IMG/VR virus record: IMGVR_UViG_3300046506_000285
Coordinates: 1 to 42,454 of that record
Strand: one strand, 5' to 3'
Length of the DNA: 42,454 nucleotides
Origin: a virus
Notes under the pieces: model-generated
Databases searched by the model: none
Told to the model about the DNA's origin: nothing
The model's input: the letters and a program-made list of their open reading frames with translations, nothing else
Made by a program: the position numbers and the translations under genes
Shown here: positions 9,405-16,931 of the stretch, in pieces
How the letters are laid out: every line of letters begins with the position of its first letter
How positions within the stretch are numbered: position 1 is the stretch's first letter

Positions 9405-9446
9405 CCCGCCAGGGCGGCGGACCTTCGAGCCCTGGCGGGCTTTTTC
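9405..9446 (+). terminator. Strong intrinsic terminator after the Cro-like gene
   Basis: CCCGCCAGGG (9405-9414) pairs perfectly with CCCTGGCGGG (9430-9439) and is followed by CTTTTTCGTTTTT. A second hairpin, GTGCCAC/GTGGCAC (9376-9399), stands just before it. The position between the Cro-like and CII-like genes equals that of tR1 in lambda, so later rightward genes need read-through, antitermination or their own promoter. Confidence 0.9.
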
Positions 9447-9572
9447 GTTTTTGCGTGCCTCTGTCATGCGGGCCTCCGTTGATCTGTTGAGAGCATGACT
9501 AAGGCGCCTGCGGGCGCCGCACATGGAATCCTTTCTGTTTTTTGTTTCCTTGACCATGATCGGGGTGTTTTC

Positions 9573-10321: not shown

Positions 10322-10518
10322 TGACGAAGCGTATGAGCGCATCGCCGGTCGAAGCCATGCGGGCATTCGATTCCCTTCCGAAGCCGCTGCGGCAAGCTAT
10401 CGCCAGCGCGGCCTTCTTCTACGACCCGAATGAAATGGCGGTGCGCATCGCCAAGGGTCGGCGGCCGCAAACCATCCTGCGCGGCATCTCCCGCTTTGAA
10501 CGGAGGGTGGCGCAATGA
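10321..10518 (+). CDS. Small hypothetical protein (65 residues)
   Basis: Encodes 65 residues with AMRAFDSLPKPLRQAIASAAFFYDP, a pattern often seen in small alphaproteobacterial proteins of the DUF6525 type. No catalytic residues are evident. The start overlaps the previous stop (TGATG), and the end overlaps the methyltransferase start by 4 bases. Function unknown. Confidence 0.7.
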   Translation: MTKRMSASPVEAMRAFDSLPKPLRQAIASAAFFYDPNEMAVRIAKGRRPQTILRGISRFERRVAQ

Positions 10519-12065
10519 ATGCAGTCATCACGGCACAGCAGCGCGTGCAGGCGATCATGGACACGGCGCTACGCGACGGGAAGGTGCACAGCGCCGACCA
10601 CAACGAGCGCCGGACCTGCATCAAGCTCAACGTCAAGGGCATGTTGCAGCGCGACAGCAAGGATGCGGACCTTTGGTATCCGACCGAGCGAGCCAGGAAG
10701 AAACTGCAGCCGCCGCAGGCTATCGCGCCGGAACAGCTTGTTCCGGCAGGTGCTCGCGTCGCGATCTGGCGGAATATCGACAGCATCGACATCGGATATC
10801 GGTTGCGCGGCGCCGATCAAGCCAAGGTTGACGCGCTGAAGCCGTCCTTTCAGGAGATCGGGCAGAAGACGCCGATCACCGTTTTCGGGAAGCTCGACGA
10901 TGCCAGGGTGGTGCTGTCGGCCGGGCTACATCGGTTGCAGACGGCAACGCAGCTCGGTTGGAAGCAGGTGCTTTGCTTCCACGAGGAAGGCGACGACCTT
11001 GACCGTGAGCTTTGGGAAATCGACGAAAATCTGTGCCGCGCAGAACTGACGGCGGCCGACCGGGCGCTGTTCATCTTCCGGCGCAAAGAAATCTACCTAC
11101 TCAAACATCCGGATACCGGGCTTGGCGAAAACCAGCATACGAGGGTTCGCCAAGTTGGCGAACCCTCTGCCAAGCGGTTCTCAGCGGCGACGGCGGAAGC
11201 GACCGGGCAGAGCGAGCGTGCCATTCAGCGCGACGCGGCACGCGGCGAGAAGATTATGGACATGGCGCTGCACCGCCTGCGCGGCTCTCGCCTCGATAAT
11301 GGCTCGTTCCTCGACCGGCTGAAGCAGGTCCCGCAGGACAGGCAGGTTCTCTATGTCGAGGCTGCGCTCGACGAGGAGAAGCGCAAGGCTGCGGATGTGA
11401 AGGAGAACCGCACCAGGAAGATGCAGCACTCCCGCATGATCCGTACCTCGCTGATCAATACCATTGCGGAGCGCGGAACGCTGGTTGCGGGCGAGATGCC
11501 GCGCGCGGCTTTTGCGGTCGGCTATTGCGATGTGCCCTGGCAGCAAGAGGCATGGAGCGACGAGACCGGGCAGGACAAGGGCTTACGCTATCCATCCATG
11601 ACAGTTGACGAGTTGATGGCGCTCTGCGCTGGCGACCGCAGCCCATTCACGCGGGATGCCGTGCTCTATTTCTGGGCTACCACGAACCGGCTGCACCATG
11701 CGTTGAAGATCATTGAGGCTTGGGGCTTCGACTATGTCAGCGCCATCACATGGGACAAGGTCAATATCGGCATGGGCCGATGGGTGCGGGACCGCACCGA
11801 GCACCTTCTGATCTGCAAGCGAAGCAACTTTCCGGGCATCGACCTTTATACAGCGAAGCCGGAAAGCCTCTACAGCGAGGCGAAGACCGAGCACAGCCGA
11901 AAGCCGGTCTGGTTCGCCGAAGAGATCGAGCGGCTTTATCCAGACATGCGCAAGCTGGAGCTTTTCCAACGGAAGGACAGTTTGCAGCCCGGCGATGTCA
12001 GGCTGAACGGACGGTGGGACTTCTGGGGCAACCAGGCGGGCTCGCCGGAAAGCGAGGCGGCGTGA
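10515..12065 (+). CDS. ParB-like domain fused to MT-A70 adenine methyltransferase
   Basis: Encodes 516 residues. Residues about 80-190 carry a ParB/Srx-like domain (IDSIDIGYRLRG, then VVLSAGLHRLQTATQLGW) followed by a KorB-like helical part. Residues about 330-500 form an MT-A70 N6-adenine methyltransferase domain using SAM. The catalytic motif, normally DPPW, reads DVPW here (residues 339-342), with the conserved WATTNRLHHAL, AITWDK and TEHLLI elements still present. It probably methylates phage DNA to avoid host restriction. Whether the Pro-to-Val change affects activity is not known. No restriction enzyme partner is nearby. Confidence 0.9.
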   Translation: MNAVITAQQRVQAIMDTALRDGKVHSADHNERRTCIKLNVKGMLQRDSKDADLWYPTERARKKLQPPQAIAPEQLVPAGARVAIWRNIDSIDIGYRLRGADQAKVDALKPSFQEIGQKTPITVFGKLDDARVVLSAGLHRLQTATQLGWKQVLCFHEEGDDLDRELWEIDENLCRAELTAADRALFIFRRKEIYLLKHPDTGLGENQHTRVRQVGEPSAKRFSAATAEATGQSERAIQRDAARGEKIMDMALHRLRGSRLDNGSFLDRLKQVPQDRQVLYVEAALDEEKRKAADVKENRTRKMQHSRMIRTSLINTIAERGTLVAGEMPRAAFAVGYCDVPWQQEAWSDETGQDKGLRYPSMTVDELMALCAGDRSPFTRDAVLYFWATTNRLHHALKIIEAWGFDYVSAITWDKVNIGMGRWVRDRTEHLLICKRSNFPGIDLYTAKPESLYSEAKTEHSRKPVWFAEEIERLYPDMRKLELFQRKDSLQPGDVRLNGRWDFWGNQAGSPESEAA

Positions 12066-14253: not shown

Positions 14254-15401
14254 GCATTATGATCATGAGCCGCCTGTTCAAGATGAAACTTGGCGGCTGT
14301 AATAGAAAGCTTCTGGCGGTGCGCCTCGCTGATTTTGCGGACGATGACGGGCGTGGCATCTATCCGAGCGTAGCGCGTCTTGCGGCTGAGACGGAGCTCT
14401 CTGAGCGCACCGTACAGCGCATTCTTGCCGATTTCGTCAAGGACGGCATTCTTGTTGTCGTCAAAGAGGCCACCGGACGGCCCGGTGTTGCCAATGCCTA
14501 CGATTACGATTTGGGCCGGTTGTTCTCCTACGCTCCCGGCCAGACGGGTGACAGCTTGTCACCCGTCGAAGATGGTCAAGGGGTGACAATCGAGCGGGAG
14601 ACGGGTGACAAACGGAACATAGACGGGTGTCAGGGTGACACCCGAACCGTAATAGAACCACCATTAGAACCATCATCTGAGAGAGAGGGCGCGAGCGCGA
14701 TCCCGGATGAAGATCCGAAAAAGGTCGAGCGTAAGTTCAAGGCCTGGTATCCCACATGGCCGATCTATCTCCAGAGCAGCGAGAGGGCGGCACGCAGCGC
14801 GTTCCTTGCCCTGACGCCGGAAGAGCGGGCAGAATGCATCGCGAAGACGCCGGCCTTCATCGCGGCCGTCAAGGCGACGAAGCAGGCGAAGTTCACCTAT
14901 GCCGCCGTCTACCTCTCGGAGCGCGCTTGGCGGCGAATGGAAGATCCTCAAGACGAGATCGGTCCGTCGACAACCCATGCGCCATTCAGCCGGCCGTGGG
15001 TGGCGTTGCTGCTTGCTGAAGTCTTGAAGCCGATGGCAACCGCATGGCCTGTTATGACGGCCTACCAGCGTCACCAGGCATCGAGTAGCTCGGAAGCGGC
15101 GCGCGTCGTCGAGATGGAGCGGCGGTCGAAATACGGATGGCCGAAGGCATCCCAAATGGTGTCAGAGCAGAAGCCCGCGACCGTGCCTGCGTTGCTGGTC
15201 GGCATCTCCGAGCAGTTCATCGGCGTGGACCCGAAAAGCGACTTGGCGGAGAGCTGGAAGGCGATGGCCGAGCGCATGGGATGGCCGTGGCCCACTTCCG
15301 GTTTCAACCGTCTGCAACTGCCTGTGGGGCAGCCTGACGATGCCATAGCAGAATTTCAGAAGCGCTTGAACGAGGGTAAGGGCCATGATGATGCAGCATG
15401 A
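14250..15401 (+). CDS. Winged-helix replication initiator (lambda O-like in role)
   Basis: Encodes 383 residues. An N-terminal winged helix-turn-helix (about 10-75: GRGIYPSVARLAAETELSERTVQRILADFVKDGIL) is followed by a low-complexity linker (about 95-150) and a helical C-terminal domain. The linker is encoded by the iteron cluster 14544-14643, as happens in phage initiators that carry the origin inside their own gene. No helicase or helicase loader is seen nearby, so it may recruit host DnaB directly. ATG 14250 overlaps the methyltransferase stop. Initiator function is inferred from domain plan and position. Confidence 0.85.
   Translation: MSIMIMSRLFKMKLGGCNRKLLAVRLADFADDDGRGIYPSVARLAAETELSERTVQRILADFVKDGILVVVKEATGRPGVANAYDYDLGRLFSYAPGQTGDSLSPVEDGQGVTIERETGDKRNIDGCQGDTRTVIEPPLEPSSEREGASAIPDEDPKKVERKFKAWYPTWPIYLQSSERAARSAFLALTPEERAECIAKTPAFIAAVKATKQAKFTYAAVYLSERAWRRMEDPQDEIGPSTTHAPFSRPWVALLLAEVLKPMATAWPVMTAYQRHQASSSSEAARVVEMERRSKYGWPKASQMVSEQKPATVPALLVGISEQFIGVDPKSDLAESWKAMAERMGWPWPTSGFNRLQLPVGQPDDAIAEFQKRLNEGKGHDDAA
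14544..14643. other. Iteron cluster, candidate replication origin
   Basis: Six or more copies of GGGTGACA or its variant GGGTGTCA occur in 100 bases: 14546, 14557 (inverted), 14581, 14603, 14625 (variant), 14633 and inverted at 14636. Two palindromes are built from them: ACGGGTGACA-gct-TGTCACCCGT (14544-14566) and GGGTGTCA-ggg-TGACACCC (14625-14643). An A/T-richer stretch with repeated TAGAACCA follows at 14650-14672. The cluster lies inside the initiator gene. Confidence 0.75.
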
Positions 15402-16023
15402 TAAATTGGATGGCGCTCCGATTGCGGTTGGTATGGGTGAGCGGTTTGACGATCGGATGCGCCGAATCAGGGAAGGCTTGCTGATAGCCGCAACGGTTCG
15501 CGCCGCCGATGATTCGCCATGGTTTGCCATCCGTGTGATGTCCGGTCATGAAATAGCTGTGAAGAACACCATGGATGATGTCGGTGTCGAAGCTGTCGTA
15601 CCGATGCGAAAAGGGCCTGAATATCGCCGCCGGGGACGTGTCATGCCCGCCAGATTGATCCCCGCCATGACGAGCTATGTGCTTGTTCGCTTCATGCCAA
15701 GCGATGATGCCCTTATGGGAATTCGAGGCATGGATCACGTCATCGGCGTGCTTGGGGGCTGCATTAACCCGCATCGTGTCTCGAATAACGAGGTGAATAG
15801 ATTCAAGGCTTTGGCGGATGATGGCGCACTGGATTGGGAGCGCCCCACCGTCATATTCAGAGTGGGCGAGACAGTGCGCGTGAAGGATGGACCATTCGCG
15901 GCGTTCTGCGGAAAGATCGTCTCTTGTAGGGGAGACGGCAAGGGCGATGCTGTCGTCGAGGTGGGCATGTTCGGACGCATGACGGCGGTGCTGATGCCTC
16001 TTGCAATGATCGAGAAGGTGTGA
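15385..16023 (+). CDS. Phage NusG-family protein, candidate processive antiterminator
   Basis: Encodes 212 residues. A NusG N-terminal-like domain begins near residue 45 (SPWFAIRVMSGHEIAVKNTM) and continues through PARLIPAMTSYVLVRFM to DHVIGVLGG. A KOW-type segment follows (VGETVRVKDGPFAAFCGKIVS, about 160-205). About 44 extra residues precede the NGN domain. Family members bind the RNA polymerase clamp; specialised paralogues (RfaH, LoaP) promote long-range read-through of particular operons. It is the last early gene, overlaps the initiator by 17 bases and stands immediately before the late genes, which suggests it drives late transcription. ATG 15385 starts a run of three Met codons with AAGG upstream. 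Confidence 0.88.
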   Translation: MMMQHDKLDGAPIAVGMGERFDDRMRRIREGLLIAATVRAADDSPWFAIRVMSGHEIAVKNTMDDVGVEAVVPMRKGPEYRRRGRVMPARLIPAMTSYVLVRFMPSDDALMGIRGMDHVIGVLGGCINPHRVSNNEVNRFKALADDGALDWERPTVIFRVGETVRVKDGPFAAFCGKIVSCRGDGKGDAVVEVGMFGRMTAVLMPLAMIEKV

Positions 16024-16088
16024 GTACAAATCTGCCACGGATTATCCGATGATCCCGTAGTGAGCCCCTGAGAACGCCGTAGCAGGTG

Positions 16089-16163
16089 GGAACGTAAGTT
16101 CCGGGGTCGGTACACCGGTCGGACCCCGCCCTGACGGCCTCGATAGGAGGCACCGATTCAGGG
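16089..16163 (+). ncRNA. Stacked hairpins in the late leader, candidate antitermination or cos element
   Basis: Three adjacent hairpins fit in 75 bases: GGAAC-GTAA-GTTCC (16089-16102, GNRA-type loop); GGGGTC (16103-16108) with GACCCC (16122-16127); and CCCTGA (16129-16134) with TCAGGG (16158-16163), which encloses GCCTC-GATAG-GAGGC (16137-16151). No T run follows, so they are not ordinary terminators. An AGGAGG is buried in the last stem. The 162-base gap between NusG-like and HNH genes is otherwise empty in an operon where genes overlap, so the element is likely functional: an RNA loading site for the NusG paralogue, or part of cos. Confidence 0.6.
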
Positions 16164-16185
16164 TCAGTGCGAAAGCTATGAGACG

Positions 16186-16599
16186 ATGACAGGCGGCCGA
16201 GAGGTCGCCTTTGTCGTCTTAAGAGGTATGGGCAGGCTCTCATCCATAACGCCACGACTGAAGACATTGGGCGCCCGCGTTGCCACCATGTCGAGGGAAG
16301 AAGCTGAAGCCCAGCGCTTCCGTGATCGTGACCGCAACGTCGGTTGGCGCAAGTGGTACAAGACGGCACGTTGGCAGAAGCTGCGCATGGTCGTGCTGGT
16401 GCGCGATCTTTTCACCTGCCAGATGAGCGGATGCAGTCGCATCGAGCCTGATACGTCGCAACTGGTTGCCGACCACAAGATAGCGCACCATGGCGACGAG
16501 GTGTTGTTTTGGGATGAGAACAACCTGCAATGCCTCTGCAAGCCATGCCACGACAAGTTGAAGCAGATAGAGGAACGCCAAGCGTTCCGGAGTTGGTGA
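16186..16599 (+). CDS. HNH endonuclease next to the terminase genes
   Basis: Encodes 137 residues. The HNH core is CQMSGCSR, VADHKIAHHGDE, then ENNLQCLCKPCHDKLK: two CxxC-type zinc pairs around the DH and the Asn/His residues. This is the terminase-associated HNH type (as HK97 gp74), which assists cos cleavage during packaging. ATG 16186 is used; an internal ATG at 16228 (MGRLSSITPRL) fits the usual N-terminus of relatives but has its AAGAGG too close. Its presence supports cos-type packaging. Confidence 0.9.
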   Translation: MTGGREVAFVVLRGMGRLSSITPRLKTLGARVATMSREEAEAQRFRDRDRNVGWRKWYKTARWQKLRMVVLVRDLFTCQMSGCSRIEPDTSQLVADHKIAHHGDEVLFWDENNLQCLCKPCHDKLKQIEERQAFRSW

Positions 16600-16855: not shown

Positions 16856-16931
16856 GCAGGGGGGGCGGTCGAAAGTCTGGAACCGCCGCCGCCCTAGACC
16901 CGCGTCCCCCTCACGTAGAGATTTTTTTCCC

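Follow-up and report, generated by a model that had tools for sequence, protein, structure and literature searches.

A phage NusG paralogue and its co-diverging leader RNA form a candidate antitermination switch ahead of the putative late genes in Rhizobiales phages

In a viral genome of 42,454 bases (IMG/VR virus record IMGVR_UViG_3300046506_000285, the whole of which is the window analysed here) the gene of a NusG paralogue is directly followed on its 3' side by a conserved structured RNA of about 140 nt (16039-16180), behind which a terminator hairpin and the putative first late gene are located. Judged by sequence comparison, the same NusG-RNA pair is present in many unrelated viruses and appears to evolve together. 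We consider it probable that the phage NusG paralogue is recruited via its own leader RNA and that RNA polymerase then passes the terminator into the late operon. An earlier note on this DNA had proposed such a late-gene antitermination, and the comparisons described below support this interpretation.

The 5' end of nusG overlaps with a replication-initiation gene (rep); the N-terminal MMQH of the NusG protein is conserved and coincides with the overlap at the rep stop codon (15385-15401). On the 3' side an HNH gene, a short open reading frame, a small-terminase-like open reading frame and TerL follow in this order. That the open reading frame just before the intergenic gap encodes 212 residues with an NGN and a KOW domain, as had been read from the sequence, is confirmed by Pfam (NusG, PF02357; 3.7e-14), by PHROG (membership of phrog_6386, "transcription antiterminator"; 6.5e-45 over residues 42-212) and by AlphaFold2. 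The model (mean pLDDT 89.4) comprises NGN, KOW and an N-terminal helix; in this single prediction KOW forms a beta-barrel, though it may also adopt a second, alpha-helical autoinhibited state of the RfaH type. Foldseek matches the predicted structure to NusG, RfaH and the NusG-RNA complex 8f5g. The protein scores below the curated cut-offs for housekeeping NusG (TIGR00922; 71 versus 135.7 bits), UpxY (NF033644; 53.8 versus 100 bits), LoaP (NF033641; 40.3 versus 125 bits) and RfaH (TIGR01955; 17.1 versus 144.5 bits), and separate host NusG genes form a clade of their own apart from the phage paralogues. By its sequence, the phage protein is not LoaP, RfaH, UpxY or Q. Since phrog_6386 also matches housekeeping NusG, which makes this profile a poor probe for genome scans, genome searches were instead based on the aligned phage proteins. 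Elsewhere in the window, a protein of 516 amino acids (10515-12065) has an N-terminal half that matches ParB-like families and a C-terminal part that matches an MT-A70 methyltransferase.

The 162-base gap behind nusG folds more stably than its dinucleotide shuffles (z -2.5), and with the gap extended to 16230 the z value amounts to -4.0. The three adjacent hairpins described for this gap in the earlier note are indeed present, yet they are not separate but parts of one larger fold with a long-range closing helix, P1, which begins about 15 nt past the nusG stop codon (Table 1). The hairpin with the GTAA loop is found as described (GGAAC-GTAA-GTTCC, 16089-16102) and belongs to P2. The end assigned to the element, 16185, had to be revised, as the element reaches to about 16218 and the terminator hairpin had been cut off. 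In an alignment of the full leader from 30 relatives, 96.2% of the cells of the 44-pair fold are paired, compared to at most 44% in slid registers. Compensatory base changes in homologues, which had been named as a test, occur at 15 of the 44 pairs (covariation score 0.165 versus 0.084, 0 of 500 shuffles); P1 has both-side changes at 3 pairs, and P2 shows compensatory changes in its closing helix as well as in its inner hairpins. For the P3/P4 core, an alignment of 55 non-redundant sequences yields 99.2% paired cells (92.0% shuffled), 6 pairs which change on both sides and a covariation score of 0.274 (0.125 shuffled, 0 of 500), while slid registers score at most 0.12. The ratio of G-U pairs to A-C mismatches in this alignment, 12 to 1, speaks for an RNA that is read from the + strand.

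The consensus core of the aligned phage relatives reads CC(C/T)TGA - variable stem - CGAYTCARGG - N - CAGTGC-GNAA-GCTATG and is succeeded in these genomes by a terminator hairpin and then the next gene. P4, of which the window holds a single copy, is the most invariant part: its GC pairs never vary, and its loop is GC[GNAA]GC in 65 and GC[KACA]GC in 13 (GACA 4, TACA 9) of 78 non-redundant copies. The idea that the hairpins constitute the loading element is retained in altered form, the candidate now being the RNA of about 140 nt with its CAGTGC-GNAA-GCTATG core, while the GTAA hairpin falls into the variable part. A second subtype, to which L012, L013, L016 and L020 belong among others, preserves the topology but differs in sequence. 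At another locus (L216, G596:C10) GTGC..GCTATG is kept, a GAA triloop replaces the GNAA tetraloop and the upstream stem is different. Searched with the Rfam covariance models, the gap gave no match at the gathering threshold and none at E<=5. A small coding gene within the gap was rejected because the distances from the stop codon to the motif occupy all three residues modulo 3.

Table 1. Features of the NusG-RNA locus and its surroundings (positions in the window)
Feature	Position	Strand	Evidence
Phage NusG paralogue, NGN + KOW, 212 aa	15385..16023	+	Pfam PF02357, phrog_6386, AlphaFold2, Foldseek
P1 5' strand, long-range closing helix, pairs with 16118-16126	16039..16050	+	100% of cells paired
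P2 subdomain, 16064-16068/16103-16107 around hairpins 16075-16088 and 16089-16102	16064..16107	+	Compensatory changes
Small hairpin CGG-TACA-CCG within the 5' domain	16108..16117	+	98.8% of cells paired
P1 3' strand	16118..16126	+	Full-leader covariation alignment
P3 outer stem CCCTGA/TCAGGG, 16129-16134/16158-16163	16129..16163	+	Covariation in 55 relatives
P3 variable inner stem GCCTC/GAGGC	16137-16141/16147-16151	+	Covariation in 55 relatives
P4 near-invariant mini-hairpin CAGTGC-GAAA-GCTATG	16165..16180	+	78 non-redundant copies
P5 intrinsic-terminator hairpin AGGCGGCC-GAGA-GGTCGCCT with short U-rich tail	16191..16218	+	Terminators after relatives' elements
Putative first late gene, HNH endonuclease (most likely start)	16228..16599	+	Relatives' starts; phrog_589 alignment
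Cos-like block GGGGGGGCGGTCGAAAGTCTGGA..CACGTAGAGATTTTTTT, upstream of terS	16857..16930	+	Conserved in Rivra, Nsp-JY10, L002

A blastn search with the gap matched six phage records, two being copies of one phage, with 73-85% identity over 106-196 nt: Sinorhizobium phi2LM21 and phi3LM21, Agrobacterium Rivra, Rhizobium PPF1 and Nsp-JY10. The NusG proteins of these phages are only 28-45% identical to that of the window. The cassette of Nsp-JY10 (L009), recorded as a Nostoc phage, is of the Rhizobiales type, so that its recorded cyanobacterial host is doubtful. Scanning for the DNA core without regard to proteins led to about 95 loci in total, from phages and prophages of Rhizobiales. Among viral contigs the core pattern is present in 39 stretches, and wherever the flank suffices a NusG-like open reading frame ends 125-149 nt upstream. 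A looser pattern run over 84,980 bacterial and archaeal species returned 65 stretches, 56 of which, all from Rhizobiales, have a NusG open reading frame 87-183 nt upstream. The nine stretches without it comprise seven scattered off-phylum matches (about 7.5 expected by chance according to our estimate); of the other two, L087 lies within coding sequence and L096 has no more than 57 nt on its upstream side. Genera which harbour the element include Rhizobium, Agrobacterium, Ensifer, Brucella, Shinella, Martelella, Hoeflea and Mesorhizobium, amongst others.

A covariance model of this family-1 element, named R1, was run on seven phage genomes; each has a single strong copy (62-79 bits, with the runner-up at 13 or below), and no further strong copy is present elsewhere in the window or these seven genomes. 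The Rhizobiaceae contain 37 R1 copies in 34 of 348 genomes, every one of the 37 directly 3' of a NusG paralogue (by coordinates; three loci were read). A search at the level of the order (297 genomes) yielded only two matches regarded as real, the remainder, near 20 bits, being judged noise. The P3/P4 core is shared even by clades whose NusG proteins have only about 21-25% identity with that of the window. Apparent insertions that separate the core from the terminator or late genes are seen at L031, L044, L046, L058, L066, L067, L088 and L116, that of L058 resembling a tRNA-Met gene.

Across 68 loci, the distances between NusG proteins correlate with those between the RNA 5' domains (r=0.72, 0 of 500 permutations), whereas Rep, whose gene overlaps the other end of nusG, yields r=0.13. 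As partial correlations, NusG and RNA remain at 0.72 when Rep is controlled for, and Rep and RNA are at -0.08 when NusG is controlled for. The adjacency of nusG and RNA contributes to this co-divergence by linkage; linkage alone, however, would predict KOW, which is encoded nearer to the RNA, to follow it more closely than NGN, while the reverse order is observed (NGN 0.69, KOW 0.57). Since the 5' domain tracks NusG, we regard it as the candidate specificity determinant.

NusG paralogues without R1 mostly belong to other clades. One well-supported clade (100/98) has, at the position of R1, a structured block of another kind (GGACGAGCCGAMAGAGTCGCAC..GCGCCATCGGCCCCAGGTGA..; family 2), which exhibits compensatory changes of its own and, according to a DNA scan, also occurs in viral contigs. 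It was located downstream of nusG at L220, L222-L224, L228, L232-L235 and L239-L244, and no obvious intrinsic terminator was seen after the family-2 elements. Further RNA variants are present 3' of nusG at L218/L219, L225-L227 and L217. Given several mutually distinct RNA types, namely family 1 with its subtypes, family 2 and the further variants, specific NusG-RNA pairing may have arisen anew several times among the phages of a single host order. On balance, we lean towards a separate class of phage late switch consisting of NusG-type antiterminators, each with a dedicated co-evolving leader RNA, in a cassette which moves from phage to unrelated phage and whose specificity is repeatedly re-invented.

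Behind 67 of 77 elements an intrinsic terminator is found within 130 nt of the core, compared to 2.9% of 2,184 control windows; two of the ten elements without one (L040, L091) are near misses. The sequence classes of these terminators vary between clades, and the distance between core and terminator ranges from 5 to 91 nt, as would be expected if RNA polymerase itself were altered and there were no local block of the hairpin. The P5 stem of the window comprises 16191-16210; its U-tract is weak (TTTGTCGTC) and a stricter terminator scan did not list it. The ATG at 16186, previously taken as the start of the first late gene, sits in the 5' flank of the terminator hairpin, and the start used by the relatives corresponds to 16228. 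Because in relatives the next ATG typically lies 14-18 nt past the terminator stem, we place the start most likely at 16228, in frame with the 16186 ATG, which enlarges the true gap from 162 to about 204 nt. The alignment to phrog_589 begins at residue 22 of the longer open reading frame. Promoter-like sites do not occur above chance in the late region. A riboswitch-like attenuator was rejected, as no signal of alternative pairing between leader and terminator was obtained: the complementarity of the terminator arms to their own leader does not exceed that to swapped leaders (5' arm 5.52 nt own versus 5.54 nt swapped; 3' arm 5.98 versus 6.04), which renders mutually exclusive folding unlikely. 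A strong terminator-like hairpin (GAGCCCTGGCGGGCTTTTTCGTTTTT) is also present in the presumed early region (9427-9452), with no copy of the RNA element nearby.

According to the mechanism which we propose, early transcription would pass rep and nusG and subsequently produce the folded leader RNA. By default, without phage NusG, RNA polymerase would stop at P5 directly before the first late gene. Sufficient phage NusG would engage RNA polymerase transcribing or paused at the leader, with the P1/P2 5' domain, which is specific to each clade, and the near-invariant core of P3 and P4 together serving as loading signal. RNA polymerase would thereby adopt a termination-resistant form and read into the late operon, from 16228 to about 38.9 kb (about 22.7 kb). 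The near-invariant core may contact a common partner such as RNA polymerase or may itself be a pause, and, by analogy, P4 could act as DNA in the transcription bubble.

An unlikely alternative extends this last notion to recruitment by non-template DNA in the manner of RfaH at ops, with RNA polymerase pausing at GCTATG (between its final T and G), GC[GNAA]GC being read in the bubble and the fold only setting the pause. The ops hairpin consists of the pair C3:G8 and the loop G4-A7 (PMC5995543). The invariant GC-GNAA-GC-TATG of P4 has a geometry like that of GC-GGTA-GC-GTG in ops, and its never-varying GC pairs would suit such a role. The motif is short, however, so that the resemblance could be due to chance, and ops itself was rejected as a component of the window, which contains four two-mismatch matches (4.4 expected), none of them in the gap. 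Moreover, a DNA-only model needs neither a covarying fold of about 140 nt nor the correlation with NGN. We regard it as quite improbable that the RNA acts on RNA polymerase by itself, as an antiterminator or pause element like HK022 put, with NusG as a helper or acting mainly elsewhere. A large compact RNA immediately ahead of a terminator and a core shared by such divergent NusG clades would fit this, but the element was never found without a NusG gene where flanks exist, and its 5' domain tracks NusG.

Very improbable, in our view, is that RNA and hairpin represent the 3' end of the nusG mRNA, acting in autoregulation or stability, as a 3'-UTR small RNA, or to restrain the late genes during lysogeny. 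Such a role would account for an element beginning at the nusG stop codon and a terminator directly following nusG; an ordinary 3' end, however, does not need a conserved fold of about 140 nt, and no better placed late promoter-like site above chance is available. The rival raised in the earlier note, namely that the hairpin block is the cos or packaging site used by HNH and terminase, can hardly be upheld despite its position ahead of HNH-TerS-TerL and its strong DNA conservation. The Rep-NusG-RNA cassette precedes three kinds of module: HNH-TerS-TerL, modules without a recognisable HNH gene, and modules with dissimilar TerL, the terminases of phi2LM21, phi3LM21 and PPF1 showing no detectable similarity to that of the window. 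We rejected a packaging site tied to its own terminase because one and the same RNA is succeeded by unrelated terminases, and because a cos-like block is located about 0.7 kb downstream, beside terS. This block lies outside the switch and, judged by its conservation, marks the probable packaging site. The linear record of PPF1 begins about 120 bp before terS, and both of its ends share GGCCGGGGCGAC.

NusG paralogues are known to regulate host operons, to which a 12-nt DNA element (RfaH) or one small RNA hairpin (LoaP) recruits them. LoaP appears to resemble the proposed action of the phage NusG-leader pair most closely. Its leader RNA hairpin is accompanied by a pause and a NusA-dependent intrinsic terminator downstream (PMC12691694). 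As in the dfn and mln operons of Bacillus velezensis, a NusG paralogue is combined with a leader hairpin and then an intrinsic terminator (here in 67 of 77 cases) before a long operon, and the predicted fold of the phage protein matches the NusG-RNA complex 8f5g. In contrast to LoaP, with its UNCG-type leader hairpin, the P4 loop is GNAA or KACA, the RNA is a multi-helix structure of about 140 nt, the proposed targets are phage late genes instead of antibiotic clusters, and nusG is located directly upstream of its own putative target. With RfaH the phage system would share recruitment of a NusG paralogue at one specific site, in addition to the hairpin geometry of P4, but its KOW domain is modelled as a beta-barrel.

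Lambda Q/qut is a late-gene switch which is encoded just upstream of its target and acts through a terminator. The same arrangement of switch gene, late target and terminator is proposed here, yet the protein belongs to the NusG rather than the Q family, a leader RNA takes the place of a promoter-embedded DNA site, and no late promoter was recognised in the window. UpxY of Bacteroides capsule operons is likewise a NusG paralogue encoded beside its target operon, although the genomic context differs. In HK022, structured nascent RNA (put) is tied to phage antitermination. The leader described here, for which antitermination is proposed, is also a structured phage RNA; unlike put, it is invariably accompanied by the gene of a putative protein partner, and it matches no Rfam family. 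No prior description of this NusG-leader RNA system was found in open-access papers.

If our interpretation is correct, a NusG paralogue fills the role in temperate phages of rhizobia that Q has in lambda, and the RNA involved is much more elaborate. The dozens of NusG-RNA pairs available in nature would then allow recognition by the NGN domain to be tested directly through swaps, and the element would supply orthogonal antiterminators for alphaproteobacteria.
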